Positions 2,952 to 63,439 of a DNA stretch of 64,000 nucleotides are shown here, one piece after another (position 1 is the first letter of the stretch; each line of letters begins with the position of its first letter). The DNA is from Armillaria gallica (lineage: Eukaryota > Basidiomycota > Agaricomycetes > Agaricales > Physalacriaceae), in assembly GCA_037576215.1 (NCBI GenBank), contig JBANDB010000008.1, forward strand, positions 4,154,001 through 4,218,000. The letters run 5' to 3'. The position numbers and the translations under genes were made by a program. The notes under the pieces are model-generated. The model saw only the letters and a program-made list of their open reading frames with translations, made no database searches and was not told the origin of the DNA.

Positions 2952-2953
2952 AA

Positions 2954-3523: not shown

Positions 3524-3746
3524 TGTTGACCTGTATAAGTCTTGTTTATCATTGAGGTGTTTGGCTACAGCATCTTACATACTGTTTCATTTAGACTTTA
3601 TCTTCTTCCCTCTTTAGTCATCTCTCCCATCATCTTGACAATTAAGGAGGTAAGCCCTTATATATATTATCCCTATCTACATACTTACATACACTACTTA
3701 CAGTTCTGACAAGTGTCTTTGTGTCAATAGGTACCACCAGTCTATA
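3524..3746 (+). repeat. 5' LTR of the second copia element
   Basis: This 223-bp copy aligns without gaps to 9143-9365. It starts TGTTGAC and ends TCTATA. The 3' copy ends TCTACA, so the expected terminal CA has changed by a C-to-T transition here. The AAACT target duplication lies immediately upstream. Confidence 0.95.
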
Positions 3747-3758
3747 GGTTATGGGTTT
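3747..3758 (+). promoter_or_regulatory. Primer-binding site, half initiator-tRNA type
   Basis: GGTTATGGGTTT directly follows the 5' LTR. It resembles the GGTTATGGGCCC primer site of Drosophila copia, which pairs with the anticodon region of cleaved initiator methionine tRNA rather than with its 3' end. The position next to the LTR end is exact. The tRNA assignment rests on similarity to that known site. Confidence 0.7.
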
Positions 3759-4049
3759 AACTTGACCGACCCTTCGTACACTTGGACCTGTCAAGACTCT
3801 TTCAATGACTCAATTCTGTCCACACATCCTTCAACTGGTTGTTCTTTCCCTGCATGAATCTTTGCCATGTCACAAGCCAATCCTCGTCCAACATTTAGCA
3901 GGCTGTCCACCTGTCTCAATGGCTGTCCACTGTCACCATGCATATATCCACTCAACGTCACCCTCACTCCTTGGTATACCCTAGATGCATCGACATGTAT
4001 GTACATCATTTGTCACCGATCACTGACATAATACTTCCATGGAACCAAA

Positions 4050-7000: not shown

Positions 7001-9123
7001 ACAAAGATGGGGATGCCAATGCTTTGTGACCATCCCACCAGAACTCCATACCAAAGCTGGCCCATGGTGATTTGAAGTGATCTTCATCAGTTACAAAGAA
7101 GGTCGCATAGGATGGCAAGTAAGAGACCTCACAGGGAAGTACTACTTTTCAAGGGATGTCAAATTCAATGAAAACACTCCTGGCCAATTGAGTTTGAAAA
7201 GATCACATAAATCAAATACCTCAGACCCCTCAAACCCTGACCTTTCAAATGCATGCCCAAAAGAAACCATTAAACCCACCGAAAAAATAGCTAATATTGT
7301 CCCAGGTAAAAAACAAGGTCATATTCTTCCTCATCTCCAATCTGCTGAAGCTTCTTCCACCTTTGCTGCCTATTTCTGTGTGGAAACAATAACTGATCCC
7401 CTTGAATCAAAAATTGACTCCACCATCGCTACATATCCCCAATCTATGCTTTCACACTCCGCACCCAACAAAAACAACAAATGCTTCTGGGATACTTCAA
7501 AACCTCCACTAACATACAAGGAGGCCATGGCCAGGCCAGACCACAATCTATAGCAAGTAGCAATAGACAAGGAGTATAAGAATCTTGTTGACCAAAAGGT
7601 GATCGTCGAATCCTTCCTACCCCAGAAAAAGAAGGCTATCGGATCCAGATGGACTTTCACAAAGAAGACCCACCCTGAGATCATTGAGAAGGCTAGACTC
7701 ATCGCCCAAGGCTTTGCCCAATGCTCTGGCGACTATGGTGATACTTATGCACCTGTGGCAAAAATCATAAGCATCCACATCATCTTCACACTTGCAGCCA
7801 AAGAGGACTTGGAACTCTTCACCTTCAACGTCAAAGCTGCCTTTCTGAATGCTCCCCTCTCACAAGAAGTCTACATCTGCCAGATTCCCAGTTTCCCCCT
7901 CTCTGACCTGAAGAAAGTCCTTCAACTATGCAAAGCGCTATACAGCCTCAAACAATCCTCCCATGAATGGTACAAAACTCTTTGTAGCGCCATGACATCC
8001 ATTGGGCTGGAAAGTTGCATAGTCAACCCCGCCGTCTTCTATGGTAGATGGAGCTCACCCCCTGACTCTAGCATCACAATGCCTGCAGACAGCTCAGATC
8101 TATTCATCATCATCCCAGTACATGTTAATGATGGACTCTCAGCAACAAACTCTAGACCACTGTACCAGTGGATCATCATTTAGCTCAACAAGATCTTCAA
8201 AGTCAATGATCTCGGAAACACGGAAGTATTCCTAGGTATCAGAATCGAGCGTGATCGTCCTAACAGAAAATTTTGGCTTTCACAAAAAGATTACATTGCC
8301 GACCTTCTTCACATGTATGATATGGACAATGTTAATCCTACCGCTGTCCCTCTATATAAAAAAACTACAATCCTATGAAGCTGGTGATCATACACTACAG
8401 GAAGTCGATAACAAAAACCTGACACTCTATTTTCAATGGCTGAATGGCCAACTCCTCTATTCCACAGTCTGCACATGTCCAGACCTATCATTCACTACTG
8501 CCGCTCTGGGTCAGTATAATGCTAACCCCACTCACGCTGTTGCTGCAGCTGCCAAAGGTGTCCTGCGCTACCTCACAGGTACTCATGATTATGCCCTCCT
8601 TTATGAGGGTGAGTGCACTAAGGATGTGATCAAGGGATTGAATGTCTGCCCTACAGACATTGCCTTTACAGATGCCGATTGGAGCACAGATGACACAGAC
8701 TGCAGGAGCTTTTTGAGATTCGCCATCTACCTTTACTCAGGCCTGGTTTCTTGGTCAAGCACCAAACAAAAATCCATGGCACTATCTTCTACAGAATCCA
8801 AGTATATGGCCTTAACCCATCTGATAAAGGAACTTTTATGGATCATTCTATTCACAAATGCCCTATCCCTTCCAATTTCCACTCCTTTCCCCATTCTCTC
8901 TGATAACGACAGCTCCTTGACAATCACTAACTCACAATCTAACACCTCACATTTAAAACACATCGACATCTATTATCACTTCATATGAGAACAGCTCAAG
9001 GAGAAGACCTTCACTACTCACTGGATCCCAACTTGATCTATGACCGCAGACATGTTGACCAAGCCTCTCTCCTCCATTCTCCACAAGATGCATGTCAAAG
9101 GAATGGGACTGGTCTCTCATTGA
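4050..9123 (+). pseudogene. Inactivated copia gag-pol polyprotein
   Basis: A Pro-rich N-terminus starts at the ATG at 4050. It is followed by a gag domain with a Cys-rich knuckle-like motif (CPQCGNPKCPY), the protease motif LLDSGCTHHI, a zinc-binding integrase N-terminus (LWHCRAGHPS...CPSC), the integrase core, RT (AFLNAPL) and RNase H (ADWSTDDTDCRS). Gag to mid-RT lies in one frame, interrupted by stops at about 4701, 6006, 6051, 6696, 7068, 7551 and 8181. Each of these is explainable as CAA, CAG, CGA or TGG changed by one transition. A one-base shift near 8360, in a run of A, moves RNase H to the next frame. RT aspartates are also altered (FNVKAAF, HVNDG). The element cannot make a working polyprotein. 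Confidence 0.9.
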
Positions 9124-13562: not shown

Positions 13563-15541
13563 TCATTGACTCGCCGCCTTCTCCATCGCTTTCCGAATAG
13601 GATTCTGGCTCTTTGGCAACGCGCCGCTCTTCTCCAGTCTGTCGAATAACACAAACAGCTTCTCCATCTCCTGCTCCTTTTCTTCTTCAGTCATGTCGGG
13701 CAGCTCTGGTTTCTCCATCGTGTTGCCCGTAATCGGGTTGATGATCTTGCCATCGGGCGCGGTGGGTTCAGCAGATGAAGAGGTATCCTCGGGTCCAGGC
13801 GCAGACATGATGCCCTTGTTAAACAAGAACCCAGCCACGTTGCCGTACCCGACAAGGCTTGATAATATCCGCGCGTCCGAGTCGGACATTGCAAACAACA
13901 TCTCCCCCACAGAGTCCTTCAGCCGTGGGTGATACACGCTGCCCATGAGCCGCAAACAGCGACCAAGCATATCTGACCGCCCCTCCAACGGAGCCGACCT
14001 ATCCAAATCTGGAGGCACAATCCATTCGCGGAGCCGTCCGCGCGTTGTCGCATCTGCGAGGCACAGGCGTGTAATAAGCACAATTAGCGGTGAAATAATA
14101 TCATCGAGGGACCCGTCCAGCTGCTCCTTCTTTGGGCGCTCGCGTACAGAGGAATCATCAGGGTCAATGGACCCGGGAAAATAGTGTGAGAAAGAGACTT
14201 CGAGGAGGTCGTGGGCACGCAGGAGAATGTCTTGCTGTATAGCCGTATTCGGTGATGGACTCCTCGACAAAGACCTGCGCCCCGCAACAGACAACACCGA
14301 CAGAGCCCGGTCCAATGTACTTGACTTTGGAGGAGTCTGAGAGAGTACCGGTGAATCGCCACCACTGCTGCTGGACGTTTTGGGGCTACTGCTCGAACTA
14401 CGACGCTCTGGGGTCGAGGGACCGAGCCATATGGGCCTGAGGGAGGACGAGATGGGTATCGTGATAAGGGCATGGATAACGTGAGTCAATGGTGACACCA
14501 AGGGGCTGGGGAACGTCGGTGGCAACGAGTAGAATGTTCGTAACAGAGACGGTAATAACCCGTCGAGATTGGAACTCCAAAAGTCACCCATAGCCTTCTG
14601 CCCATCGGTGGCTTGTGGAGTCTGTGGCTCAGCATCGACCATCTGCCAGCCATCAGCCTCTCCGGAGTCACGACAAGAGATCTCGCGGCGCACCTTTGGG
14701 TAATGCAGCAACAGATTGAACGTGAACTTTAGCAGATCCGCCGTGGCTTCACGTCCAAGCTTGGTACCAGCCTGTATGGCGACGAGCATGGCATCAAGCT
14801 TGCTGGCGATGATATCGACGATGCCTCTCCGCTTATGATTATGGTCTTCAACGAGCGAAACGATCCAAGACGGGCCCGACACCGTCGCCAAGAACAATAT
14901 GCGCGACAGAATGAAGACTTGATCCGGCGTCGTCGATTTCTACGTAAAAAATAAGCGGGAGCGAGGAAGAAAGCGAAGAAAGGCTCACATCAAGCATGCC
15001 CACACAAGTTTCGCCACCGCCAACATCCTTGCCAATAAAAATACCCCTGGCATGCTCAAACAAAAGCATAGTGTTCGCGATGCACCTTAACGCCTCACTC
15101 GACGCTTCCGGATCGTCCTTGAATGAAATTGATAGCCCCAAGAGCGCGCTCAGCGTCGATGCCGTCGCGAGCGTCTCGGATCCTGATGGGTTCTTGCCAA
15201 GGGTTTTCACAGCAAGCAAGGCTTGGGCGGCGTCTTGCGGGGGATAAGCTGGGAAGGACAGGCAGAGAACGGAGGCCGCACCCTTGGACGATAATCTCCC
15301 ATTGCTGGTTCCATGCTTAGCAGTGGCTTTGAGGTCGCGTAGAATGGTATCGATAAGAGTTTTACGGGTATCGTTGCTGAACGTGAAAGGCGGCGCTATC
15401 AAGAAGAGAACCGTAAGAACTGTAAATCTCGGAAAGAACGACCGACCGGAGCATACCGTTAATTATGCTCTGTAGCACCACGGATCGCGACGAGGAAGAA
15501 GGGAGCGCGGTATACGACTCGAGCAGGTCAACGCCCGACAT
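13563..15541 (-). CDS. RIC8: RIC8 / synembryn, G-alpha chaperone and GEF
   Basis: Ric8 proteins fold and activate G-alpha subunits independently of receptors. The predicted start (ATG 15541, MSGVDLLESY) precedes an intron with donor GTATGC at 15456 and acceptor at 15396. The second exon (TLIDTILRDLKATAKHG) is followed by a further intron (about 14,940-14,990) and a long last exon. Family hallmarks near the C-terminus are GNVAGFLFNKGI, NPITGN and MTEEEKEQEMEKLFVLFDRL. Low-complexity Ser/Pro stretches (about 14,340-14,410) look like an insertion in a loop. The stop at 13563 lies about 250 bp upstream of the SPT7 start on the same strand, so the interval must hold both the terminator of this gene and the SPT7 promoter. 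Confidence 0.85.
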
Positions 15542-44860: not shown

Positions 44861-45100
44861 CGCTGCTAGCTATATCATTATTACATGTATGTACCCTTGA
44901 ACATTCCCTTTCCTTTTTGTTTTCTTACTGCAATGTAACATTTCTGTGCATGGATACTACTCATAGACACCTTCCGCTTCAGTGTACAGACATCCACAAC
45001 TGTACTCGTATTGCCGCTCGCCGATCTCATAAGTCAGCACAGGGGTTCGTCGGCTCAACGTTCCCTAACCCTCTCACGCAACGTTATTTTGAACCTCAAC

Positions 45101-45787
45101 GTCCGGATGACGCCCAGTCCGCTTCATTCGACCTATCGGATATTGACTCTGAACAGCTTTTTGGACTTCCTCCATCGCCCATCACTTTGACAGACACGTG
45201 GATGGCTCTCACTCTCAAGAAAGTCACGGCTTTACCCTCCCTCACATCCACTATCTCTGAATCCCTTGATGGCTATGTTTCTATGCTCAAATCTAAGAAC
45301 GAATCGTTATGTTCTTCCCGTCTTTACCGATCAGAATGCTACCAACATCACGCAGCGATGTCATCACGGGCGCATCTGCTTTTTTACAGGCCGCTTCCCT
45401 TCTCCAGATCAGCCTGAACTCAAGGCAGTGTTTTGGATGGACAAAGAACCTCCCGACAAATTCCATTCACAAAAGTATTCCCTCAAGTATGCTATACAAT
45501 GCTTGAAAGACTGGAATTTTGGGATTTGGAAGACACGTCTTCTCTATGTGGGACTGTTTCCCTCAACTAGGAATTTTGGATACACGCTGTCCAGTTTGGC
45601 TGAGTTTCCGTGCAGCCGGTGTCGCTCATGGATGCATCAGATCGCACTGATGGGAAAGAAATATGTCTACAATATATATGTTGACTTCGATAGCACAAGA
45701 ATGAGGGCTGAGCATTGGTGGCCGGAAGATCTGTTGTGTGGTTCACATATCCGAGACGATAACGAGCTTTGCAGCAATGTCGCCTAG
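45101..45787 (+). pseudogene. A0: internally deleted copy of kinase-like gene A
   Basis: The N-terminal part (ALPSLTSTISESLDGYV, SSRLY) matches A1 and A2, but with a 6-base net loss at the ITFFDRHLDE site and a frameshift near 45,310. The next frame carries SPDQPELKAVFWMD and FHSQKYSLKYA as in A2. It then jumps to VDFDSTRMRAEHWWPEDLL, which matches the last 50 codons of A2 (IIDFDRAKF...MRAERQRLEDLL). About 1.3 kb encoding the middle domain and most of the kinase-like domain is missing. Upstream, CTCACGCAACGTTATTTTGA (from 45,073) is similar to the sequence just before the A2 start. Confidence 0.75.
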
Positions 45788-46026: not shown

Positions 46027-48241
46027 ATGTTGGACTCACTTGAGTCTCGCGACGAATCCCCCGTCGATATCGAAGCTTTGGAGGAACTCCTCAACTTTGT
46101 GCCACCACTTCTACAGCATGATCCAGACTTGGACGTTCCCGCCCCGAATTCGTCGCCAGTCACATTCTACGACAAACACTTGGACGATTCACTCATTCTA
46201 AAACGAGTCAAAGCCCTTCCTTGTCTTATCTCCACCCTCACTGAAGCCCTTGATGACCATGTCTCGTCATTCATATCCCGAGGCAAACCGTTCTATTCTC
46301 CCTCCATGACCATGAGGCGGGACATTTATAGTAAACACATCGTTGCCACGGCATCCGATGTCTCTAAGCGTTACTGTGAAGGAGGACACCGTTATGTTCA
46401 AGCGGCATCTGTGCTTTCGTTTCACCCTGACCAGCCTGAACTAATGGCTGTCTTCTCGATGTCAGGAAGTTTGGTTGAAAGACCCCCTACTTTCCACTCA
46501 GAGCAATACTCTCTTCAACACGCGTTCAAGAGAGGGCCGACTTGGCTTGTCATGGTAAATGCTTTGGACGATGACCGAAGGGCCCTTCTTCTATCAATGC
46601 GGAAGAACCTTCTCCACATGGCTGTTTATGAGGCCTTTGCACTGTCGGGAAAGACAGTATTGGAAGACATGTCAGGATTGCCAAGTGTTGCCACCTTTCC
46701 GTGGAAGAGAGGAGGAGGATCAATTTACCGAGAGTCTCTTTCTCACCGAGTTGCACCCCCCGATGTCTCTAAATATCTATGGGCGACGAAGCCCGCTACC
46801 GGTTCTGTGCAGGTGATCGATCCTACCCGCTTTCGTCGTAGCGAGCGCCTTAAAAGCTTAGCTCCGACAACTTCATCTACTTTCAAGAGTTCCGACCGTA
46901 GCACACGTCCTGCTCGTAAAGTGGCAATTCCAACGCGCACTATCATCACGCCGAAGAATCCTACCAACCATAAATACCAGGCGAGCGCTGCAGATTTTGT
47001 ACAACGCGTAAGTCAGCAACTACGTTCTGCTCCGTTGTACTTTGCTCTGATTCGTATTGCCCTAGGCTTGGGTGCAGGCTGTCAATTTCGACTCGACAAT
47101 AATTGTGTTTGACTGTGGAAATTATTTCAGAGTTGGTGTCAGACACCGCAAAACGCAGACATTGTATATTTCCGATTTGGTGGACGCTAGCAGCCGTACC
47201 GACCCAGCATATGGAAAGGTCATGACGGCAATAAATCTAGCGATTATACGTGATGCCATGGACCGGACCCCCCTTTTAGATCCATCGCTTCATAAGAATA
47301 GGCCTTCATCCTGCTCAACTTCGCGTAAACGCCACCGCGACAGAGATGATACGGCGCCTGTCCGGAGGTCTCGTCGCAGACTTGGAGAGCCGAACAAGGA
47401 GGCCGAGCCAGAGGTGAGTCTCATTGAATGTGCTGAAGCTGGTTAAGCTGATGAGAGATATCCTAGGATGCCCTTGCTGAACTGAGCAGTCGCAACGTAG
47501 CGCTTCTGTATTTTCGAAATGGGAAATCTAATTCCCCGTATCCTTCTTTTTTCCGACGAGCTGGAAGCTCAAGTCGAAAACGCTCCTATCGTTATAATGA
47601 ATACTTAACTTTGGTACTCGGGAGGAAGTTGGGTCGAGGAGCAGTGGGGGAAGCTTACGAAGCATCTCTCGAAGTCGACTTTGGTGACGGGAACATAGCG
47701 CACTATCCCGACAAGGTGATAGTCAAGCTTGCCATTTCTGAGAGACAGACGGAAAGACTTCGACATGAATATAGCATATACCGTCATTTGACTGAAGGGC
47801 CCATCCGGGTAGGTAATATCCCTCGTGCTTTCGGGTTTTTTGAAGACGTCGAATCGGAAGCGGGCGCCCTCATCCTGAGTCACGCTGGCAAAGCACTGGC
47901 ATATCGCTCGAGTCCGCCAGGTACAGGTGTCACGGTCTCTGCTGAAGAACGGTATGTTAACTTAATGTGGCAAGATTCCGACATACTCATCAACATATAT
48001 CAGAGCTGCTTACATCAAAATACTCACTTCCATTCATGACGCGGGTGTCGCTCACGGCGATATCAGGTCTTGGAATCTCCTTGAAGATGATGAGGGAGGA
48101 TACTTCATAGCTGACTTCGACAGGGCAAAATTACATGGCTCACGATATCAGATGGCAGCTGAACAGGACCGGATAGGCCGTCTTTTAGATGGCCATGACA
48201 TTGACGATGACTCCGTCACTAGCTATCCTGCGTCATCCTAG
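46027..48241 (+). CDS. A1: N-terminal domain plus kinase-like domain
   Basis: The start is ATG 46027 (MLDSLESRDESPVDIEAL), with three short introns and about 690 residues. The N-terminal domain has FYDKHLDDSLILKRVKALPC and, further on, VATFPWKRGG and PDVSKYLW. Basic motifs RFRRSERLKSL and APVRRSRRRLGE look like nuclear signals. The middle domain is AVNFDSTIIVFDCGNYFRVG, RKTQTLYISDLVD. The kinase-like domain has the glycine loop LGRGAVGEAYEA, beta-3 Lys in VIVKLA, a helix-C-like RHEYSIYRHL, catalytic loop GVAHGDIRSWNLL and metal site FIADFDRAK. HGD for HRD and DFD for DFG recur in fungal FunK1-like kinases, so activity is plausible but not proven. It meets B1 tail to tail, 31 bp apart. Confidence 0.75.
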
Positions 48242-48272
48242 TGCAATTTCGCAATTTAGACTAATTCTATCT

Positions 48273-50931
48273 TTATTTAAACCATGCATTATCCTTAAGC
48301 TTCTTCAAGTCCGCCTCAACTGCCCTTTTGCGTTGTCGCCGACTTCGTTTCATCGGGGAATGGTATTTTCCTTTCGAAACGACTCCAAACTTGGACCTCT
48401 CAGATCTCTTTCTCCTCGCCGTCAAGGTAGCATCCATAACCTTCTTGTATAAAGCTTCGCTGGTATTTGCGCACCTCGCCTTTGGCTTCCTTATTATGCT
48501 GTCGTTATAAACCCTCTGTGTTGCCGTGGATCCCGTGGATTTTTGATGGACCTTGCCATTCTTCCACCTGACGAAGCGGATCCCCCACTTGCCTTTACTG
48601 TTCTTCCCATCTTTCGTGACCAGGATGTTCTCCGGAACAAGAGTACCATGTGTGATCCACGATGCGTGCATGATTTTCACTACTTCGCAGACTTGAAGAC
48701 TAATGCAAAGGTGGTCATTCGCTAAAGAATAGGTTCGAACGCAGAAAACTTACTAAATATTAGCTGGGGTGCGACCTGGACCAAATTTGTCAGAAATGGA
48801 GCAGCCACCATCTAGAAGGACGAGGGCGGTCTTATTGTCACGCGAATGCCGGTAGAGCCCGCACTGTTTGACAATCCCCAAGTGGTCGATGATTCCGTCG
48901 ATTATTGGGAATTTGGTGTACATGTCGTACTCGCGCCGGAGGCCTCTCTCTTGATCCGGGAACTGTGCTAGCTTGACGACGATGCCGCGCACTGCCGTCT
49001 CGCCATCGTTGACATAGCAGGCATATGAAAGCGTGGAACTAGGGTATCGGGCCAAAATGAACAGTTCCATCTCCTCGGTCCAGATACCCATGTGAGCAGG
49101 CCAGGCGGGTGTTCGCCTGATTAACATGCTACCAGGCGCTCCTAAGTCGCGTACATTTTGTTTCCATGTTATTTTCAAGGAATGCGCGTGTCTTAGTCGG
49201 TGAAAGAGGCGCTTTTCCTGGCGATAGGTGTCCACATCAGTCAATAAATAATGAATGTTATATTGTAATGAGACGTACTGCGGGAGTGCAATTCAGTTCA
49301 CCTTCTTCATCTTCATCAGCGCTAACATTGGTCTTCGCTTTTTCCCCTGCCCTTGAAGTGTTGACCGTTTTCGATAGCCGACGTGTCTTCGATGTGCTCG
49401 ATGACATCTTATCTTCAGACGGCTCACTCCGATCATACTCATAAGCATAAAGCTCGGGCTCTCGAGGCAATGCGTTTAATCTCTCTGCCCTGTCAATCGC
49501 ATCCAGGAGCGCAACAATTTCAAGACCAGTATGAATCTTGAAGTATCCTGGTCCGCCCGGCTTTGGATTTCGTAGGTCCAAAAGGGGGGAGAGATAGAGA
49601 CGCTGTAGTCTTCGGTCTCGTATGCCGATATATTCTAGATTCGCGCAATTCAAGACAATGAATGTCGCATCGATGTTGACTGCTTCAGCCCATATCTGAG
49701 TTCAAACGCGTTGTCAGACCGGAAGAACGAAGAAAAGCAAAAGTACCTGTTGCACGATGTTTAAGGCTTTATGGTAGTCCTTTTCTGTGAAGGACAGAGT
49801 ATCATCATCATCATTTGGCTCGTCGTCGTCGTCGCTGTCGTCGTCATCGTCACCATTATTATCATTGTCATCGTCATTATCTCTCTCGTCATAGTCAGCA
49901 TCAGTCGAATGTCGGTTATCTGATTCTGGCCTGGCCCGCTTTTTCGACCGCTTCGGATTCTTGAATTTCCAGCGCCTGGTATCCTGGACAGGTTGCACAG
50001 AGCAGTCAAGTTCTGACTGGTCAAGGACGAAGGAACAACCGATGTTCGAGTCATCTTCACCAAATCTGTTCTCCAGTATAGCACCATCAACGCCCGTCTT
50101 GTTTCCCGTGACAGCGAACCCGAATCGATTGTTCTTCTTCCCGCAAAACTGGCTACCACAGGGTTTGGACCCTGGACAGCGAAACCAAGGGAACTCTGAA
50201 CCGATCAGATGGGAAATGGCAAGCATGACTCCCTTCGTTCCAGCATTCATACTTTTGAACTCCCAGAACAATAAATCCTTTTCGATGACAAGCTGTAATT
50301 TATGTTTCAGGTCTTCAGGAAGTTTGGACGTTTCAATAGCAAGTGTGTCCAACGAAAGGTATCCATCTGCTTCCGCGCAGCTAGTGGCGACCCTGGGCTT
50401 TACACCGAAGTGGAAGATGGTGGACCATTCATCAAGACCGGCGAGAAGGGCAGAAGCGGCCAGAGAAGGATACTGCTGCAGGGTGGGGTAACTCATCTGA
50501 AGCGTAGCCTCGTGGCTTACCGTCCAGGTCTGTCTTTGGGCCAGTACTTCCGATATGAGCCCCGGGTGCAGGATGCCGGACGCATCAACGTGAGGAAGTT
50601 GCTTTGCGGCGTTTCTGGAACGATATGGCTTCATCTTGGAGTCGACCACCCCAGCAAGTTGGTTAAACATGTCAGGAAAGGAGACGATATTTTTCAGAGT
50701 AAGCTGCGAGTGAAGGTGCATGTCATAATGCGCAGGATTTCGGGTGTCGTGGCTGCCTTTGAAGCCCTTGAGTTTGATGAACTTTGGCTGGCACGTAAAG
50801 AGGGAGTCCAAAGCTGAAACGGCAGGTCAGTCACCATCGATGCAAAGTCTTCAAGCAAACTCACCGTCAACACCACCCATCCCGGAGGCGGGCCGAAAAT
50901 TTCCCTTCTTTGACTTAGTTTTGGGCGACAT
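48273..50931 (-). CDS. B1: paralogous protein with predicted pseudokinase domain
   Basis: The start is ATG 50931 (MSPKTKSKKGNFRPAS), with several short introns and about 780-800 residues. The N-terminal domain has HYDMHLHSQLTLKNIVSFPD, related to FYDKHLDDSLILK in A. It is followed by LLFWEFKSMNAGTKGVM and a Cys cluster (RCPGSKPCGSQFCGKKNNRF). An Asp-rich run lies at about 49,790-49,890. The middle domain (YIGIRDRRLQRLYLSPLLDL) matches that of A. The C-terminal domain keeps a VVK lysine and LRREYDMYTKF, but has HGTLVPENI where HGDxxxxN is expected, and FVRWKN where DFG/DFD is expected. Both key aspartates are missing, so I predict a pseudokinase. The tail is Lys/Arg-rich. Confidence 0.72.
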
Positions 50932-52436
50932 GGGAAGGAGTATCTGCTACAGCAGGCAGGTTGTGAAGTAGAGTTGGATGAGGATTGGATCTTGTACGAA
51001 ATACTCGTCAATCAAGCACGAGCAAGGGAGGTAGGGGCGGGATGAATCTGAGAATGTAGGAGAACTGCACAGGCTGTCGAAGGGGTTTCTGCTTTGTTCG
51101 AACACGCCCACACCTTTTGAATAGCATTGCTTCGTCCCCAGGTGGTCGTATTCATGGTTGTCACCTGCCGTTGTTTTTCTGTGCGTTCTTTGGATCTTGA
51201 GTCCAGTTCCTATTACGAGTAGATCAAAGCTCGATCTGAGAATCTGCAATACAGACTGGACAGCGATGAAAACAACAATGTTCTCGTTTGCGGCTAGGTA
51301 GCCAGGAGATCAAAACAGATCAGAGAAAAACAATAAAGCATGATGATGCTGGGCCTCCCCAGTGGGGAAGCCAGCGCCATGGGTCCACGATGGGGAAGTA
51401 GCATTGTGAGTGCGGTTGCTGTGATGGTCGCGTCTCCTGAATATATTAACGTGCGAAGCACTTTAGCATTACAATACCGGCGTCTCAGCACATCACCAAT
51501 CAGGAAGGAGTGTGAAACGGCGAGCCACTGGTAGGAATAGAATCGCTACGTAATGGACCGCCTTGCTATACGGCATCACCAGGGGCCCCGAGTATGAAAA
51601 TATATTCCTAAGTGAACAAAAAGCACTGAGATCATGGGTTTTAGAGAATGAATACGAGGTAGTTGATGTTACACGTACTGACGTCTATAGAATGTCGAGG
51701 GCTTCCTTCGATACCAATTCAATACTGCCCGTAGGCGAAGTTCTGAATACACGTTTAGACAATGAAGAGGCGCATATTCCAGGCTGACAAGACTTATAGC
51801 TGCATGCGCTTCAGGCAACAACAAACTGGAAGGGATAAAGAAAACATGTCGGCCAACGGTCAGGAACACCGGTATTAACAGGCACAGGACGGCGAGGGCG
51901 AGGGCAATGATATCCAGGCGATCTGTGACATGCACATGTGGAACAATGAATGTGTCGTTATGATAAAAACACATATTCGTCGTTCGCAGGCGCTGTGAAT
52001 ATTTGATGCCAAGTCTCAATAAAGCCAACTCGATGTGAACGGCCCAGGCACACTGTGAGATAATTGCATGAGTCACTTCCGAGGAAGGAAGGAGACTGGA
52101 GGAATGATCTAACGAACACTGATCGCTCAGAGTATTCGCAGGCACACAGCCCTAAGATCTCTTAGCTGCGCAAGCGAATCTCGCAAGTAATAAACCATCA
52201 TACCTTACTCTGAGGTTTAAGGTAGTACCTATCTCAAGACTCAAGAGTACTCGAGGAGTCACTGTGACGACGTGAGTTGGGCTCGAGTGATGCACGAGTT
52301 TCCCACGAAATACCCAAGGACAGCCATTACAGTGCTGCCACTTCATCTGGCAGAGATAAAGTCATAAGAGCCCCGAAAGGGAATGGGCTTGCCCTCAAAA
52401 CGCCATGATTGAAGGTACCGTTTGATCCAGGCCATG
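50932..52436. other. Region upstream of B1, no supported gene
   Basis: The first 200 bp should hold the B1 promoter. A minus-strand open stretch at 51,669-52,145 encodes one hydrophobic segment (IIALALAVLCLLIPVFLTVG) but has no recognisable family and no clear splice partners. The rest shows scattered short ORFs only. Confidence 0.5.
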
Positions 52437-54060
52437 TGTAGCTCAGCCAAGTCCACTGTGACTGGAGTGAGAAGTTAGTGAGAAGGACGATTGATTAAGG
52501 ACTGGCTGATAATGGCACACTGCCACAGGTAACATATGCGCCGTCCGTGTCCCAGTTTCCCATCTCGCAGAAGGCATCGTAGGAGCCCGTCGTATTAGCC
52601 ATCGGGAGTTCAGCGTACTGACTCTCTTGCACACCAAAAGTATTGACATACAAGTATCTGACTCTCAATGAAATGACTTGAGAATTGGATCGCCTGGACA
52701 ACGACGCGCTGCCACATCTAACAAATGCACCGTCCATGTCACAGCTATCTAGATTCCATCTGGCGGAACCGAATTCTTGGAATGTAGGAGCGCGTACCCA
52801 GACCTTGCCTTCCCTCCAGCGCAGCAGAGGGTATCGTCGGAGGCGACCGTATTATGAGCATCATCACTCGGGAGTTAGCTAAGAGATTTGTTCGTGCAGA
52901 AGAATTATGGAATCGGAGAGCGAGAGTATGCGTGTGCGTAGATCGAGAGAAGAAACACAGGGGAATGTCAAGGAGCAGTGCAAATAAATAATACGCATAT
53001 CACTGGCTGGCCGTGGCAAGAATTGGTTGATAATGTATGATAGCGCCCCCGCCGTCACAGCCATTTGTGTCCCAGCTTCCATCTCGCAAGGATGAACTCT
53101 TGGCGGGGCGAACGAGCCCATCCCAACGGCCATCAGGAGTTCGCTCTCAAGCACGCCCTTGAACACAAAGGATACTGGCTGGCACCTAGTCATGCATCTA
53201 GCCTTGGGTTTGAGGGGATAATGATCGATGAAGCCGCCGTCAGGTGTAGGAAGGCATGGAGATCGGCTAATGTCTAATGGGGTTGGCTTGCAATCGTGAA
53301 CGAATCGAGCGCTATCGTTGCTCTCAGTTGTCCCGGATCTGCAAGGGCTGTCAAATCGCAAAACAATGCCGTGTTCTCCTCGGAAGGCTCAACACCTCCA
53401 AAACGATAGTCCCGTTCACCTCGACACGAGGTTGCTGCTGGCTGTAAGGTGTGAAGTCGGTTCGATTCTCGTTACTGGGCTGATATTTTGACAGTTGGCT
53501 GGGAATTGACTGACAATGACGCGCTGCCACAGCCGACATACGTGCCGACCGTGCCCCAGCTTCCCGTTTTGCATAGATGAACTCTCGGCGCGTCGTACAA
53601 GCCCACCGAAACGGTTACCGGGAGCTTCGCGTACTACTCCAGCCTGCCGCAGAATAGCATCATAATCAAACAGCTGAGGGGGTTTTCTTCTGGGTCTTCT
53701 GTGAGTGCTCTCCATGAGTGTCATATGCAGCTTGAGAGGACACATGTCGGTGATGAAGTCTTCGTCACGGAAGATTTAGTTTATTTGGCTGAACAGAGTG
53801 TCGGGAGGCGGTGAAGGAGGTCAAGGGCAGTTGGAAGAGATTCAGGGGGGAGGTTCATGACGCCATGAGTGAGGTGCACGCGTTGAGGGCCTGTGAGAAG
53901 CGTTGAGTCTGGTGTAGAAAGGTTGAGGGCGGCATGGAGATCGGCAACCCTGGCGCGGAGAGTCGGGTGAGTCTGGCCAAGAGGCATCTATAGAACTGCA
54001 AAGGATGAGTCTGGGATTAGCTAGCAAGCGCATATACTCACAGTGCGTAGGTCGTGCCAT
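52437..54060 (-). pseudogene. C1: decayed gene with repeated exon-like segments
   Basis: On the minus strand, MPLGQTHPTLRARVADLHAA (53,930-53,990) and QLFDYDAIL (53,665) match the C2 segments at 63.8 and 63.6 kb. Between 52,440 and 53,640 a block of about 100 bp recurs in at least four diverged forms (near 52,540, 52,720, 53,060 and 53,545). Each contains a variant of TCCCAGYTTCC followed by a CATCGGGAGTTC-like element. Frames are broken throughout. A potential first exon (MARPTHC) lies at 54,035-54,060. I do not recognise the family; the pattern suggests a repeat protein that decayed. Confidence 0.45.
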
Positions 54061-54383
54061 CGTGGTTGGTGAAAAAGGCTCGGCTATCGGGCCGAGCACC
54101 CGGCGAATCCTGTTCTGGGAGTTTCAGCGATATCTTCGAATAAACCACGAAGGCGAGGATGTCGAGTAGTTATAGGTTGCCTACTTACCTAGATCTCATA
54201 CGAGCGCGGCCGGTTTTGATAGTGTTTCTTATCATCCTCTTTATTTATGTAACATATTGCGGAAATTCAAGCACACTGAGTCCCGTACAGACTGAAGGGA
54301 ACGGAAAATATTTAATGAAAGACGTACTCACAAAGGTTTTGATGGTTGGTGAGTAAATGTACGTCTCATTTTCATTTTTTAGG

Positions 54384-54440
54384 CATGCTGGTGGGAACAA
54401 TAGAGCTATTACGCAGCTGTCGCCCAGGGGAGGGCCGGGG
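54384..54440 (+). repeat. Duplicated fragment of the Sel1-repeat gene 3' end
   Basis: CAATAGAGCTATTAC at 54398-54412 is identical to 44616-44630, the acceptor site and first codons of exon 2 of the Sel1-repeat gene. The flanking bases (GCAGCTGTCGCCCAGGGG versus CCACTGCTGCCCGGCTGG) remain similar. A GGTGAGT donor-like site lies just upstream at about 54,349, as in the original. This places the left edge of the second cassette inside a copy of the Sel1 gene tail. Confidence 0.6.
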
Positions 54441-54666
54441 TGTCCGTATCCCGCAAGGACGAGGGTGTGACTTGAACGTCGTACTTCACTATTCCGTAGA
54501 GAGTGTAGAGCCGGTGGTGCCGGGTGGTGCTTTTCGGTTTTTGATGTGTTCGTTAAGTATGTACCTAAGTATTAGAGATCGATCATCAACGGACCGGATC
54601 CACTCGGACCGATGTTCAAAGCCAACAGTTTCTCACGCAATATTATGTTGAATTTCAACGTTCATC

Positions 54667-56892
54667 ATGGCGAGCTCACGCGCCGATTCCTTTCCACACT
54701 GGAATCCAGAGGCTGATCTTGAACATCTCTTTGGGTTCGCTCCATTTCCTCTGGAACATGATCCTAATGCCGACATTCCTAAGCCATACTCGTCGCCCAT
54801 CACTTTTTTTGACAGACACTTGGACGAATCTTTGATTCTCAAGAGAGTCACGATTCTGCCTTCACTCATATCTACCCTCACCGACGCCCTTGACGACTAC
54901 GTGTCCGCCTTCAATTCTAAGAACAATTCATATCATTCTTCCCGTCTTTACCTCAGCCCTGAACTCTATGACTGCTTGGAACCCCCAAAGAATGCTGCCG
55001 ATATCGGACGGCGATACTGTCAAGGCGCATCTCCTTTTTTGTACGCTGCCTCAGTTCTCGTTGTTCATCCGGAACAACCTGAACTCAGTACAGTGTTTAT
55101 GATGGACGACAGAGGCACAGGGTCGGAGGAATTTCATGCTGAACAATATTCCCTCAAGTACAAAGCTTATACGAGAGAGGATATGCTTGGAAGGTTGGAA
55201 TCTTGGGATACAGGTAACCAGGCACTTCTGCTGTCTATGTGGGGCTGTTTGCCTGACTTAGCGATCTGGGATACGTACGCGCTGTCCGGACGATCTATTT
55301 TAGAAGATATGGCGGGTTTGGCGACTCTCGATGTCTTTCCCTGGAAGCAGTGTGGTGTATCGGGAAACCGGCATTTCACGAGTACAGTCCATGTAGAGAG
55401 ACCCGACGTCTCAAAGTACCTGTGGGAAATAGCACCGAGACGGCCTGATGGTATGGCGCGAGATAGTGCTACCGGTCTTCGTCGCAGCGAGCGACTCAAG
55501 AGCCATCCTTCTTCTGCAAGGAAGCCACCTCATTTTTCCACGAGGAAACAGGCTGCCCGTTCATCGCTACCCAAGGAACCTACTACCCCCAAAATTGCTG
55601 TTCCTAAGTCTGGACGTGGAACGTCGAGATACAAGGCGAATACTGCGGACTTCATACAACGAGTATGTTTCTTTCTCTTTCATGTAAAGCTGTGTGATAA
55701 TCAAGTCTAGGCTTGGGCGCGAGCTGTTGACTCAGATTCGACCTTTATCATATTCGATTGCGGCAACTTTCTCAGAGTAGGTGTTCGACACCGGAAAACC
55801 CAAACGCTCTACATATCTGAGCTAGTCGATGTTCGAAATTGCTCCAGTCCACCCCATGGAAAGCTCATGGTAGCAATCAATGTGGCAATATTACGCGATG
55901 CCGTTGAACGTATTCCGCTCCTTGACCCGACTTTAATCAAAAGCAAATCTCGTAAACGGCGGAGAGAAACTACCGAAACAGCTGCCCCCGTCAGACGTTC
56001 CCGTCGTAGACTCGGAGAGACGCTTGATGAAACATCACCCGAGGTAGGTTATACTATTAACATGGCCTTTCCATACTCAACGATCAAACCACAGGAGATG
56101 GTACATGAACTGCTTACTCGAAACATAGCGCTGCTTTACTTGCAACATGGAAATCACCATTCTAGCTCGCCTTCGTTCTTTAGAAGACCGAACAGCCTCG
56201 GTCGACAGCGTTCGTATCGTTACGATGACTGTTTGACTTTTCTTATCGGGAAGAAGTTAGGTCAAGGTGCTATTGGGGAGGTATACGAAGCTCAAGTATT
56301 GGTGGATATGCCTTCTGGACGTACGGCTCGTTATCCAGAAAAGGTCATCATTAAACTCGCATTCTCAGAAGAGCAGAAAGAGAAGATGCGGCATGAGTAC
56401 TCGATATACCGACGTCTACTATATGGACCTGTGCCTGTTGCCGCAGGGGATATACCTACAGCTTTTGGATTTTTTGAAGACATCGAGTCCAATACGGGAG
56501 CTCTCATTTTGAGCTACAACGGTCAAACGCTAGCATATCGTTCAGACCCGCCCGCCTCCGGAATCTCCGTCTCTCCAGAAGAAAAGTGGGTTCAGATGAT
56601 GTCCCACAGCCAGGACTGACGCATGCATCACAGGGCTACGTTACTTCGCATACTAGACAGTATCCATGCAGCTGGCGTCGCTCATGGGGACATTCGAACG
56701 TGGAACATGGTTGCTGATGGGGAAGGAAATCTCTCTATCATCGATTTCGATAGGGCAAAATTCAGGGGCCATAGAGCACAAATGAGGGCTGAGCGTCAAC
56801 GTTTAGAGGATCTCTTGGATGGTGAGCCCATCGACGGGTTCTCTGTCACAAGCTACGAGGCATTGACAACAAGCGATGAGACATCTTATTAA
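54667..56892 (+). CDS. A2: N-terminal domain plus kinase-like domain
   Basis: This is the paralogue of A1 with the same three intron sites. The start is ATG 54667 (MASSRADSFPHWNPEADL). Shared blocks are FFDRHLDESLILKRVTILPS, LDVFPWKQCG, PDVSKYLW, LRRSERLKSH, the middle domain DSDSTFIIFDCGNFLRVG, and APVRRSRRRLGE. The kinase-like domain has LGQGAIGEVYEA, VIIKLA, RHEYSIYRRL, GVAHGDIRTWNMV and SIIDFDRAK. By eye it is about 65-75 percent identical to A1 in aligned blocks, so the duplication is not recent, yet every catalytic position is kept. The stop (56890-56892) is 5 bp from the B2 stop on the other strand. Confidence 0.77.
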
Positions 56893-56897
56893 TACAC

Positions 56898-59547
56898 TTA
56901 GTATCTATTCCATATTGCATGATCTAACCTCTTTCTGTCCTTCTCAACGGCAACATCCCACAGTTGTTTCAAGGTCGAGAAAAGAATTTTGCACCCATAA
57001 GGTGTGCAAGGGAGAGCCTTTCGCCTCGACATCCACACTCTCGAAGATGCGGCCTCGTAACTGTCCGTTCCACGCTGTTCTTTGCCATATACACCTAACT
57101 TGGATAACGACTTGCATCGACCCTTCTCCTTGCATGTACGCCTCGGTGACCTTTTTCGAATATTGCCGTTATTAGCCTTCTGTACCATCAATAAGCGTCG
57201 ATGATTTTGACCGTTTTTCCAGCTGATAATGTGTATGTCCCACTGGCGCTGCGTTTCTTGCTCGTTCCTTGTTACAAGAATATTTTCTGGTCCCAGGCTT
57301 CCGTGAGTAATCTTTTCGAAGTGCATTTTTTTAATTGCTGCTTCCACCTGGGAACTGGTATCCTTCAATGACTGCACTGGACACGATGATAGTGACACTC
57401 ACTAGATGTCTTTGGGAGTACGGTTTCCAAACTTTATGGAAGCCGAATCGCCACTATCCAGAAGAACGAGAACCGTATCGTCCTCGCGCTCATACAGTCC
57501 AAAATGTTCGGGTATTCCAAGGCTTTCGGCAATGGTTCCAATCCTCGACAATCTAGCATACATCTCGTATTCATCCCGAAGGCCCTTTATTTCGAGCGCA
57601 CCCTGATTAAATTTGATGACAATTCCCCGCACGGCAGTTTCACCGTTGTCGGCGTAACAATAATAGGATTGAGCGCTTTTCGGATAATGACCCATGACAT
57701 GCACCTCCATTTCTATGTCGTTCGGGGAACTTGCATTTGACCGTATGACTGTCATGCTGCCCGCTGGTCCTAAATGATCTATGTATGTATTCCATGAAAT
57801 CTTCAAGGATCTTGCTTCTCGCAGCTGCTGGAAGAGCTGTAATTCCTGATGAAATGTTGTCACTAAGGATTCAGAGGCATATGATTGTTTATGCTTACCT
57901 CTGAAGTCAGCTTGTTTCCTGAGCTGAAGTTCTTCGCATTCGATTCCGCGCGACCCTGCAATATCTTGGCTTGAGCTTCATTTGCAGTCGTTGTGGACTC
58001 GGAAAGCCTGGGTGTCTTCGTGGTCTTTGTTTCCTTGTCTTGGTAGGGTTCTGCGCGGTCATATTCGAATGTATGAAGCTTGGGAGCTTGTGAGAGCGCC
58101 TCCAACTGTTGCAACCGTTTCGCTCGCCGAATGACATCATGGAGTGCTGTAATTTGTAGGCCGGTGTGGATTTTGAAGTATCCTGCTGGGAGACTACGGG
58201 GATCGTCTAGGTCTATGAGCGGTGACAGATAGAGACGTTGCAATTTTCGATCCCGTATGCCAATGAATTCTCGACTCCCAGCATTCAGAACCATGAAAGT
58301 CGCATCAACGTTGACAGCTTCTGCCCACACCTGTTACACGTATCAGATATGATAACACAGAAAGCTAGCAGAATCACAGGTACCTGCTGGATAATTTTCA
58401 GCGCCTTTTTGAAGTCACCCTCGTTAAATGGCAGCCTGTTATTGGCACCTCCGTCGTCTTCGATATCATCTCCTTCGAATTCATCAGACCCATCGCCTGA
58501 TTTCCGTCTCTTCTTCGTTCCCTTTTGTGTTTTTCTTTCAGCACATTTGAATCTCCATCCGCTCGTGTCCAGAACCGAAGCCACGGAGGAATTGATTCTA
58601 GATTTATCAAATCTGATTCCGCCGGTGTCGGAAACGTCAGACTCGGCATCTGAGGGGTCGGCAAAGATATCTCCATCCTCGCCTGTTTTGTGCCCCGTAA
58701 CGGTGAACTGAAACCTGTTGTTCGGCTTCTTGCAAAACTGCGCGTTACAACTCTGGGATGTAGGGCAGCGAACCCAAGGAAACTTTGAGCCGGCCAAATG
58801 GCTAATAGCTCGCATAACTCCTTCACTCCCTGCATTCATACTCTTGAACTCCCAGAACAGGAAGTCCTCCAAGCCCTTCTCGATGACGAGTTGAATATCG
58901 CTGTCAAGGGCTTTGGGAAGCCCGGCCAACTTTATGGCAGCTTTAGCAGGCGACAGATATCCATCTGCGAGAGCACAAGGCATCATGGATGTAGGGCTGC
59001 TGTTGAACTCGAGGATGTTTGACCACTGATCAAGGTCAGCGAACAGAGTCGAGGCGACGAGAGATGAAAGATTCTGTAGGCTAGGGTAGTTTTTCTGGAG
59101 GTCCGTCTCAGCTCCTATTGTGAGGCCGGTGGACGTGCCCTTCAAGGTTGCATGAACACGTCCTGGATGCAACGCATGTCCACCGGGAACTCGAGGTAAG
59201 CGCTTCGTGTTTCCAATCAAATGGCGGAGCCTGGAGTCAACGACACCAGCCAGTTGTTCGAGCATGTCAGGAAAATGGACGACATCTTTAAGAATTAGTT
59301 GGGAATGTAGATGCATGTCATAGTGTGCCGGATCCCGAGTACCGACGCTACCCGTAAAACCTGCTTTCTTGGCGAATTTAGGCCGATAGTTAAAGAGAGA
59401 TTCCAAAGCTTGCGAGTCAATGTCAGAATTTGCATCAAATAAACCAGAAGCGTACGTACCGTCTTCCCCGGACGATGCTTTCCTGGAAGGCGTGGACGCA
59501 GCGGGAGGGCCTGCTTGACGCTGATCACGACGCTTTGAATTTGACAT
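56898..59547 (-). CDS. B2: paralogous protein with predicted pseudokinase domain
   Basis: This is the paralogue of B1. The start is ATG 59547 (MSNSKRRDQRQAGPPAAS). The N-terminal domain has HYDMHLHSQLILKDVVHFPD, then DFLFWEFKSMNAGSEGVM and the Cys cluster RCPTSQSCNAQFCKKPNNRF. The acidic run of B1 is replaced by a short SGDGSDEFEGDDIEDDGG. The middle domain is AVNVDATFMVLNAGSREFIG with RKLQRLYLSPLIDL. The kinase-like part keeps IVIKF and LRDEYEMYARL, but has KITHGSLGPENILV (HGS for HGD) and IISWKNG at the DFG place. The same two losses in B1 show that the pseudokinase state predates the duplication or was selected in both. Confidence 0.75.
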
Positions 59548-61231: not shown

Positions 61232-62224
61232 CTATTCATTCCAATAGTGCTCCGGGTTTTCATCATAGCGCCCTTCCCCAAAGACACCGACGGCAGTCCA
61301 AAACTGGTTCAACACCCGGGCCTCAGCAAGCGACACCGGTCTGTCTATCAACGCATAGTCCCAATAATCCGGATACCACCCAGCTGCCTCCCAATCGATG
61401 ATGGCTGCAAGCCGGCCGTCACCAGTGACAAGGATATTCTCTCTGGTAAGATTTGAATGCGAGAAGCAGACTCTATGGTATCCAATGATTCGTTCCCGCA
61501 CGTTGTAGTGACTTTCCTTCGCCACTAATCCGAGTAACGTTTCATGGAAACTGCGGACAGTTATGAAGGGTGGCAGCACGTGCCGCTCATCATATCGTTT
61601 ATATATCAATGGCGAGCCATAAGCACCGGTCACCTTATAGTATGTAGGAGGGATGATAGATCGAAGTTCAGTGAGAGCCTTTCTCAGGTCCTCGATGAGC
61701 TGTGGGCTATCTGAGAGATCGAGGAAAGGTTTATCGAAGGATAGCGCGAGGTCAGAGAGTTCCGCACAGCTCCGCACACCGCGAGGATAACATGAAGGAG
61801 GACTAAAGACGAGTGACATGTAATGGTAATACTCGGGCGGGTACATAGTCCTAGCCCTGAGCCAATCATGAAGTGTTACGACTCCTTCAAGTTTGGGCTC
61901 CTTCATTAGGACCATCCCCAGCGACCAGGATGAAGCAGGAACGACGTCAAGAACGTCAGGGATGCCAGGAATGGAGGTGTTTTCACGAACAAACTTGAGG
62001 TTGTTCGCCTCGATTTCTGGGGGTTCGAGAAAGTATTTAAGACGCAGGCCGAAAGGGAGATGGAGATGGTATACTAAGCCTTTTCTTTCGAAGAGACCAA
62101 TACAAATCCACAATGTTGCAATAAAGTCGTATACGACCCATCGGGCAGGGAAACGTAGCCATAGCCACCAGAGGATCCTTGTACAGGCTTTCAGCGTGGA
62201 TGAGAGGAGACTGAGCAGCTGCAT
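61232..62224 (-). CDS. Aminoglycoside phosphotransferase-like (APH) protein
   Basis: A single long frame of 330 residues (ATG 62224, MQLLSLLSSTL) has the layout of fungal APH/choline-kinase-like proteins. The N-lobe ends near VVPASSWSLGMVLM. The catalytic stretch is VCFSHSNLTRENILV and the metal site is LAAIIDWEAAGWYPDYWDY. The usual HGDL is HSNL, so the catalytic base Asp is Asn (codon AAT, one G-to-A step from GAT), while the IIDWE aspartate is kept. A hydrophobic N-terminus (WLRFPARWVVYDFIATLWIC) may be a membrane segment or loop. Substrate unknown; the lost Asp raises the chance of an inactive enzyme. Confidence 0.75.
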   Translation of the reverse strand: MQLLSLLSSTLKACTRILWWLWLRFPARWVVYDFIATLWICIGLFERKGLVYHLHLPFGLRLKYFLEPPEIEANNLKFVRENTSIPGIPDVLDVVPASSWSLGMVLMKEPKLEGVVTLHDWLRARTMYPPEYYHYMSLVFSPPSCYPRGVRSCAELSDLALSFDKPFLDLSDSPQLIEDLRKALTELRSIIPPTYYKVTGAYGSPLIYKRYDERHVLPPFITVRSFHETLLGLVAKESHYNVRERIIGYHRVCFSHSNLTRENILVTGDGRLAAIIDWEAAGWYPDYWDYALIDRPVSLAEARVLNQFWTAVGVFGEGRYDENPEHYWNE

Positions 62225-63439
62225 GGCGTCAGAGGACTATGGGAGCAGTTCAGTGCTTATGGCCTAGTATACAAAAGAAGATATTCTCGCCTTTACTCTA
62301 GTGCTTGTGGTGGGTGGAGGTTGGTGTGTACGTCAGCACGCAGTTGTCCTCTCCGGTGTTTCGGCGGCCAAACTTGAATCTTCCCTTTCTTGGGCATCTA
62401 GTGATCCCTTCAACGGAGTCTATGTTTAGTTTATGTTCTGACATTGAATACTTGAGTTGGAACTTGCATCTGGGAACGGTAGTAGCATGGACAAATCCTT
62501 CAACGATAGCGTACTGTCACAGAACTGGCTGGAACTGGCTTCAGAGATGTGACTAAGTACTACATTAGTGAAGGAACCTAAACTACATGCTGACATGCTG
62601 TAATGAAACTGGGCTCAATATATAGCATGACTCGCTGCAAGACGTTGTGGACATACCGTTCCATTGTCGGTAGCAAGTCGTGATATATGCCGCATACCCA
62701 GCGGCGTCGTACTCCTGCCCTCGAGAGCGGGATAACTCACCCACCCACATCTCATGCAGGAACTCGGGATGCAGATGTATGAGCTCATCCTTGCACAGAC
62801 AGTAGACTCGGAACCGAAAAGGTACAGGATCCCTCGTGCCAGCCAACGCCTTTCCACCGCCAGGTCATGACAGAGGCCAACCGCACCTATACAATGAGCT
62901 GAATCCAGATATCATCCTGATGTGATTTGCAACTTCAGATCTAACGAGAAGAAGTTCCAGAACCTCGGTGAACCATTGTCCCCAGTCATGAGTTCAATTG
63001 TTGATAATTATCGCCGTTTTCATCAACACGTGCGATCGTTGCAAGTAAGTTAGTTAGTGAACGGAGGGAGCAGTATCATCGGTACGTGGTTTTGCATCAT
63101 CCTAAACGCTGAAGATTTAAGATGGAAGCGCTCGGTTTGATGGCGACGAGAAGCAGGGACCGGAACCGTCATGCCCGAACAAACAAAGACAAGGTTGAGA
63201 GAAAGGCGTATAGATTCCCTAGTAGGAAGTGACAAGTATAAAAAGGAAGCGCATCTTGGACATGTAAAGTGCGATAGAGAATGCAGCGAAACGATAGAGA
63301 TGGTGGACTGTGTATTGTAAAAGTCGCCGCGAGAGTTGAGATATCACGCTGCGGACGTAAATTCTTCCATTTAGAATGCCATCAAGTCTACGGCAGGGTA
63401 AAACGGCGCAGACGAGCGTATATCTCCCCTTGGAAGGAT
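62225..63439. other. Region between APH-like gene and C2
   Basis: A minus-strand open stretch at 62,583-62,850 (FRFRVYCLCKDELIHLHPEF) might be a gene fragment, but I cannot assign it. Nothing else is supported. Confidence 0.4.

Follow-up and report, generated by a model that had tools for sequence, protein, structure and literature searches.

A tail-to-tail kinase and pseudokinase gene pair in Armillaria gallica as a candidate co-inherited module

Why should a gene for a catalytically complete kinase lie tail to tail with a gene for a kinase-like protein that has lost its catalytic aspartates, and why should the arrangement be found twice within some 14 kilobases? The question is raised by a 64,000-nucleotide stretch of the Armillaria gallica genome (contig JBANDB010000008.1, positions 4,154,001 to 4,218,000 of the forward strand; hereafter the window), in which a plus-strand gene A converges on a minus-strand gene B in each of two cassettes. 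We found that A and B are paralogues that are linked, have diverged together, have lost opposite motifs and are both under selection. The explanation that we prefer, at a rough probability of 0.38, is that A, the live kinase, controls an effector, B, in a co-inherited module resembling a split SPOK killer. An earlier interpretation made from the DNA letters (the sequence-only reading) had proposed two cassettes of the same plan. Both are present, with the start codon of A1 at 46027 and that of B2 at 59547 (coordinates are those of the window).

46027-48241, plus strand: gene A1, 683 amino acids, live-type kinase (exons 46027-47007, 47066-47413, 47467-47951, 48004-48241)
48053-48061 and 48110-48130, plus strand: A1 kinase motifs HGD and ADFDRAK, spliced model
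48273-50931, minus strand: gene B1, 813 amino acids, pseudokinase (exons 50931-50865, 50813-49747, 49695-49279, 49217-48754, 48699-48273)
48650-48627 and 48575-48555, minus strand: B1 pseudokinase motifs HGTLVPEN and FVRWKNG, spliced model
54667-56892, plus strand: gene A2, 692 amino acids, live-type kinase (exons 54667-55662, 55711-56043, 56095-56585, 56634-56892)
56683-56691 and 56740-56760, plus strand: A2 kinase motifs HGD and IDFDRAK, spliced model
56898-59547, minus strand: gene B2, 814 amino acids, pseudokinase (exons 59547-59460, 59408-58384, 58330-57899, 57845-57403, 57354-56898)
57305-57282 and 57230-57210, minus strand: B2 pseudokinase motifs HGSLGPEN and IISWKNG, spliced model

All four genes are open once spliced, with GT-AG introns; the first intron of B2 was picked by its resemblance to that of B1, and the unspliced reading is likewise open. 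The stop codons of the convergent genes are separated by 31 nucleotides (A1/B1) and 5 nucleotides (A2/B2). Overall identity is 52% between A1 and A2 (678 columns) and 46% between B1 and B2 (753 columns), lower than the 65-75% previously given for the two copies, a figure that is possible for blocks only.

The motif states ascribed to the four proteins by the sequence-only reading were confirmed: lysine, HGD and DFD in A, HGT with FVRW in B1, and HGS with IISW in B2. A1 and A2 retain the glycine loop, the VIVK/VIIK lysine, HGD and DFD, and thus have what a kinase fold requires; B has the kinase fold with the HRD and/or DFG aspartates lost, which defines a pseudokinase. The motifs were tallied over 44 A rows (our own and deposited models, two outgroups included) and 42 B rows. 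Of the readable A rows, 36 of 38 have the HGD/HRD aspartate and 36 of 37 the first aspartate of DFD, the exceptions being one broken copy in the A. gallica genome and the frame-broken P0054. Among readable B rows, the HGD aspartate was seen in 2 of 21 (P0017 and P0021) and the DFG aspartate in none of 20; 19 of 20 have tryptophan where DFG has phenylalanine, and all 31 rows readable at the ATP site have its lysine. A new conserved [S/R/N/G]-W motif stands in place of DFD, and the pseudokinase-specific residues are invariant. The sequence-only reading had conceded that B proteins with intact motifs, if common, would tell against it; by these counts they are not common. Loss of the catalytic aspartates is old and shared, since no B has the DFD aspartate and nearly all have the tryptophan. 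Random decay is ruled out by these lineage-wide new residues and by ratios of nonsynonymous to synonymous substitution (dN/dS) below 1.

Estimates of dN/dS were made for eight gene pairs within the A. gallica genome, one of which, B1/B5, approaches saturation at synonymous sites. For A, values were 0.09-0.16 in the kinase core, 0.10-0.21 in the middle domain and 0.26-0.31 in the N-terminal core; for B, they were 0.07-0.11 in the middle domain, 0.17-0.52 in the N-terminal core, 0.17-0.65 in the pseudokinase core and 0.53-1.40 in the C-terminal tail. The B pseudokinase is therefore maintained, less tightly than the A kinase and about as tightly as the B N-terminus. An apparent swap of constraint between A and B rested on a cut that included the fast B tail and was gone once the tail was removed; the contrast remaining after the recut is a kinase core under tighter constraint in A than in B. 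Conservation was compared over 28 of the 44 A rows and 16 of the 42 B rows, with broken, short and partial models and the two outgroups omitted.

How are the two genes related? Profiles of A and B are homologous over their full length (hhalign probability 99.7, E 1.7e-26, 586 columns aligned). In both proteins an N-terminal domain is followed by a disordered linker, then a conserved middle domain starting at FIQRAW/IIQQVW and then the kinase or, in B, the pseudokinase. In A and B alike, two introns fall at matching alignment columns with matching phase; another matches in phase and sits in the poorly aligning linker; B differs from A in one additional intron near the start and in its poorly conserved C-terminal tail. 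All five alignment cuts used for an age tree placed the A proteins of Armillaria, Hymenopellis and Mucidula on one side and B with Mycena on the other, with bootstrap values of 76-98, B standing on a long branch for which attraction to Mycena is possible. The tree took 11 of 36 Hymenopellis/Mucidula proteins plus P0100; the chosen row P0095 was dropped. A recent origin of B from Armillaria A is not favoured, because this supported split separates all Physalacriaceae A from B and Mycena. Judged from the tree, B is probably a paralogue of old standing that Hymenopellis and Mucidula have lost or in which it went unseen. In P0100, a 943-amino-acid protein of Hymenopellis radicata, a kinase of the A type precedes another kinase-like domain, which has HND and VVSWKAAKF. 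Its SWK at the DFG site recalls the ISWKNGK of B, and profiles score P0100 as equally A- and B-like. Either the pair itself or only the gene model may be fused here, and P0100 is a lead for partnership, not proof.

The A. gallica genome assembly (86 Mb, 28 contigs) holds eight A/B loci in two clusters: five lie on the contig of the window, C8 (4,316,861 bases), at 4.199-4.295 Mb, and three on contig C13 at 0.549-0.634 Mb. The C8 cluster reaches to about 22 kb from the contig end. All eight loci are tail to tail, every B facing an A or a broken A, with stop-to-stop gaps of 5-31 nucleotides at the five loci measured. Both genes are full and open at four loci (P1, P2, P5 and P8). At P7 both A and a short B are intact, at P4 a short B is open and A is broken, and at P3 A and B are both broken; P6 has an intact B, a broken A and another broken A upstream. 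The short B (439-445 amino acids where open) ends short of the pseudokinase; next to A, a relic of the C-terminal tail of B remains. The eight loci descend from one another and therefore do not represent eight independent events. Basic stretches resembling nuclear localization signals are present in 8 of 8 full copies scanned. Queries with B proteins of two of the three lineages described below (II and III) found no B outside the eight loci among the best candidates scored, and A queries picked up, outside the loci, short stretches of A on several contigs. Some pieces match only A residues ~253-360 (L066 at C15:64086-64394, and others on contigs C14, C16, C4, C1 and C9); a mobile element has perhaps spread this fragment.

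Homologues in other species were sought by word-based searches, whose results are the matches listed; absences outside the A. gallica genome are accordingly weak. Among these matches are at least 34 B and at least 35 A proteins, and both genes occur in all 11 named Armillaria/Desarmillaria species. The named contigs include 14 with A and 14 with B (contigs of equal listed length taken to be identical); those lacking one gene are one contig of A. mellea, with a partial A, and one of D. ectypa, with B. Positional tags in A. ostoyae are adjacent or nearly so (04572/04573, 04600/04602). The closest proteins among the matches listed are A. gallica P0035 for A2 (76%) and A. luteobubalina P0001 for B2 (71% over its full length). 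The sequence-only reading had also named generally unlinked homologues as a finding that would tell against it; we observed that 8 of 8 B loci in the A. gallica genome have an A or its remnant, and that 13 of 15 contigs elsewhere carry both genes. The A and B trees are congruent, with three lineages in each; a Mantel test on 12 assigned pairs gave r 0.96 (p 0.0001), 8 of these pairs having been assigned by us from locus tags, shared contigs and clade, a procedure that favours congruence. The four physical pairs of the A. gallica genome alone gave r 0.95. The lineage III pair was not found in this genome with A and B queries, best candidates scored. A and B are tightly linked and inherited as a unit, as the two genes of a toxin-antidote element should be.

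What could B contribute to such a unit? Its N-terminal domain contains a D...ExK stretch that resembles the PD-(D/E)XK nuclease motif and has the residues called for by that motif (see PMC6660238).

50251-50370, minus strand: B1 D...ExK motif, with ADGYLS at 50370-50353 and WEFKS at 50265-50251
58840-58968, minus strand: B2 D...ExK motif (residues D178, E216 and K218), with ADGYLS at 58968-58951 and WEFKS at 58854-58840
58732-58767, minus strand: B2 cysteine cluster C-x5-C-x4-C (B1 equivalent at 50178-50143)
46627-46650, plus strand: A1 YEAFALSG, aligned to B WEFKS with the lysine missing (in A2, WDTYALSG at 55267-55290)

Both the glutamate and the lysine of WEFKS are found in 34 of 42 B rows and the aspartate of ADGYLS in 39 of 42, and the three cysteines of the cluster do not vary across the 16 full-length B proteins compared. 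The ExK lysine is present in none of the 42 readable A rows, which have tyrosine, phenylalanine or histidine instead. Homologues from Hymenopellis, Mucidula and Mycena lack it in every readable row and keep the kinase aspartate (31/31). These motifs make the N-terminal domain of B a candidate nuclease of the restriction-endonuclease-like (REase-like) type. The eight B proteins without ExK carry D-x-Q or D-x-R, and none of the eight has the pseudokinase. This short class comprises P0029, P0031-P0034 and the B copies of loci P3, P4 and P7, comes from several species, and is possibly a dead decoy or a resistance form. Loss of ExK and loss of the pseudokinase are imperfectly tied, because three short deposited models (P0027, P0028 and P0030) keep ExK without a pseudokinase.

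The module that we propose would have begun as an old gene encoding an N-terminal domain, a middle domain and a kinase; its duplication would have left two copies lying tail to tail. A would have stayed an active kinase. B would have lost the kinase aspartates and kept the fold, the ATP-site lysine, the [S/R/N/G]-W motif and the N-terminal D...ExK and cysteine motifs, and would act as an effector through its REase-like N-terminal domain. A would bind and phosphorylate B, or the target of B, and so restrain it. B without A would then do harm, and the pair would be retained and propagated as a module of the addiction, spore-killing or self/non-self type. A partnership of A and B, which the sequence-only reading had suggested, is likely; that it is physical, and that it involves nuclease chemistry, toxicity and drive in a killer/protector role, we infer.

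The comparison with SPOK, made by description and motifs, concerns spore-killer proteins of Podospora and Fusarium in which the nuclease lysine is needed for killing and the kinase aspartate for resistance (PMC6660238 and PMC9972908). SPOK as described in PMC6660238 joins a domain predicted to be of nuclease type to a kinase that lies at the C-terminus and is closer to eukaryotic-like kinases, with disordered linkers; it forms a multi-copy clustered family with opposing activities in the nuclease-like and kinase parts, and in these respects resembles A and B. However, SPOK has both catalytic sets in one protein, whereas A and B each lack one set. The D-to-E span of SPOK3 is 219-240 and the spacing in B is longer, at 38 residues. 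The SPOK cluster C-x3-C-x13-C-x5-H-x7-H lies just before the kinase and was not matched here (span and cluster from PMC6660238); the C-x5-C-x4-C cluster of B, unlike that of SPOK, follows the ExK stretch, far from the kinase. A more specific proposal, tentative and on balance unlikely, although better placed than the alternatives that follow, is a basidiomycete killer-protector, of toxin-antidote or spore-killer type, derived from a bifunctional nuclease-kinase ancestor whose two functions came apart when it was duplicated in inverted orientation and each copy lost a different catalytic activity. B would be an ExK effector with a dead kinase and A a live kinase with a dead effector domain, forming a convergent pair with at least three co-evolving specificities.

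Several observations weigh against B as a nuclease effector under the control of A. No nuclease family was found in A or B by Pfam or by sequence-profile matching to PDB, and fold searches returned no nuclease fold, their lists being filled by the kinase and other parts of the models barely covered. The AlphaFold2 model of B (mean pLDDT, the predicted local distance difference test score, 42.6) is unusable outside the kinase; its N-terminal region scores below 50, and at this low confidence it gives helix, not strand, over WEFKS. The ExK stretch is not more conserved than many other B columns (~90 are invariant), and the N-terminal core of B is not more constrained than its pseudokinase core. 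A keeps an acidic residue at the glutamate position in 39 of 41 readable rows. At locus P6 the intact B lies opposite a broken A, with an intact A about 2 kb off. No B was detected among the matches listed for Hymenopellis or Mucidula, where many A proteins were.

Could the two proteins work together with no toxicity at all? The pseudokinase STRAD is a partner of the kinase LKB1, and B could likewise serve kinase A, as its scaffold or by acting on it allosterically, within an ordinary Armillaria pathway of development or stress. This signalling heteromer is the alternative that survives best, and we still consider it unlikely. It would account for the unbroken retention of the ATP-site lysine in B (31/31), for the conserved motifs that B has of its own, for the kinase being, with the middle domain, the most constrained part of A, and for the joint divergence of A and B. 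However, fast duplication, broken copies and a weakly constrained N-terminus are odd for a core pathway, and neither the three pair lineages, with lineage III not found in the A. gallica genome, nor the A proteins of Hymenopellis and Mucidula without a detected B are readily explained by it.

It is also conceivable that there is no partnership, and that in an expanding orphan kinase family an old tail-to-tail duplicate became a pseudokinase and was copied through adjacency alone. Local duplication suffices for retained pairs and congruent trees, the clusters are small, partly tandem and contain broken copies, and the dN/dS of B is moderate. We find this account more doubtful than a heteromer: the linkage spans the whole Armillaria/Desarmillaria radiation with full-length divergence down to ~46-52%, the pseudokinase-specific residues are invariant, and in the A. 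gallica genome B was not found apart from A among the best candidates scored.

If A controls B, as we prefer, in which direction does it act? We favour restraint, as in SPOK and in the vaccinia B1/B12 system, over activation of the RIPK3/MLKL kind, because A persists where no B was found, because in the A. gallica genome no cluster has an intact ExK-type B without having an intact A, and because SPOK sets a precedent for a kinase acting against a nuclease. The vaccinia B1 kinase and B12 pseudokinase are paralogues with opposed effects, likened by the authors to toxin-antitoxin pairs (PMC6395007); the system is viral, with no tail-to-tail module and no ExK domain, and serves only as a works-like comparison. 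The least probable alternative, a death switch of opposite sign in which A activates B in heterokaryon incompatibility or parasite defence, as RIPK3 activates the pseudokinase effector MLKL (PMC12881547), would suit the combination of a kinase with a pseudokinase-bearing effector and the clustered, variable gene family, but no membrane-active or HeLo-type domain was found in B by Pfam, and the persistence of A where no B was found is unexplained for an activator without another use.

The FunK1 family (Pkinase_fungal, PF17667) is a family of fungal kinases that, like A and B, have an N-terminal part. Membership was not supported: PF17667 gave no match among 31 A and 26 B proteins at E up to 1, and a poor, three-sequence profile of the FunK1 N-terminal part gave no match by hhalign. 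The family is abundant in the A. gallica genome (76 exon-level matches, L001-L008 among them), some members having an ExK-like stretch; by eye, some copies show KPDIVGVLR ... VLEVKEMK or HWQEFKTK ahead of a helix and the kinase. In plants, the wheat tandem kinase-pseudokinase Yr15/WTK1 has a kinase linked to a pseudokinase, to be compared with Hymenopellis P0100, whereas Armillaria has two separate genes and an extra N-terminal domain.

In line with the sequence-only reading, no description of the pair was found in the open-access literature searched; the full-length paralogy of A and B and the B-specific ExK motif go beyond that reading. Fungal kinases, pseudokinases, ExK domains and killer modules are known, and it is the paired arrangement with opposite losses that appears new. 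If A and B are opposed, they would be a natural separation of two activities joined in one SPOK protein. How one SPOK protein both kills and protects is a standing question, which two genes would make directly testable. If true, the pair would be the first such candidate in mushrooms, as far as the same literature shows. If A and B instead form a signalling heteromer, they would be a rare case of a kinase and a paralogous pseudokinase kept adjacent through the history of a genus.

The pair cluster adjoins ordinary genes and other elements in the window, and a further A remnant precedes A1:

45094-45738, plus strand: broken A fragment upstream of A1, aligning to A2 residues 10-212 with four frameshifts
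1843-8985: pieces resembling a Copia-type retroelement, with an RVT_2 match at 7554-8180 (E 2e-29)
13566-14939, minus strand: Ric8/synembryn gene (PF10165, E 6.5e-97), one of the ordinary genes
61235-62236, minus strand: APH-family phosphotransferase-like gene near B2 (PF01636, E 3.2e-07)

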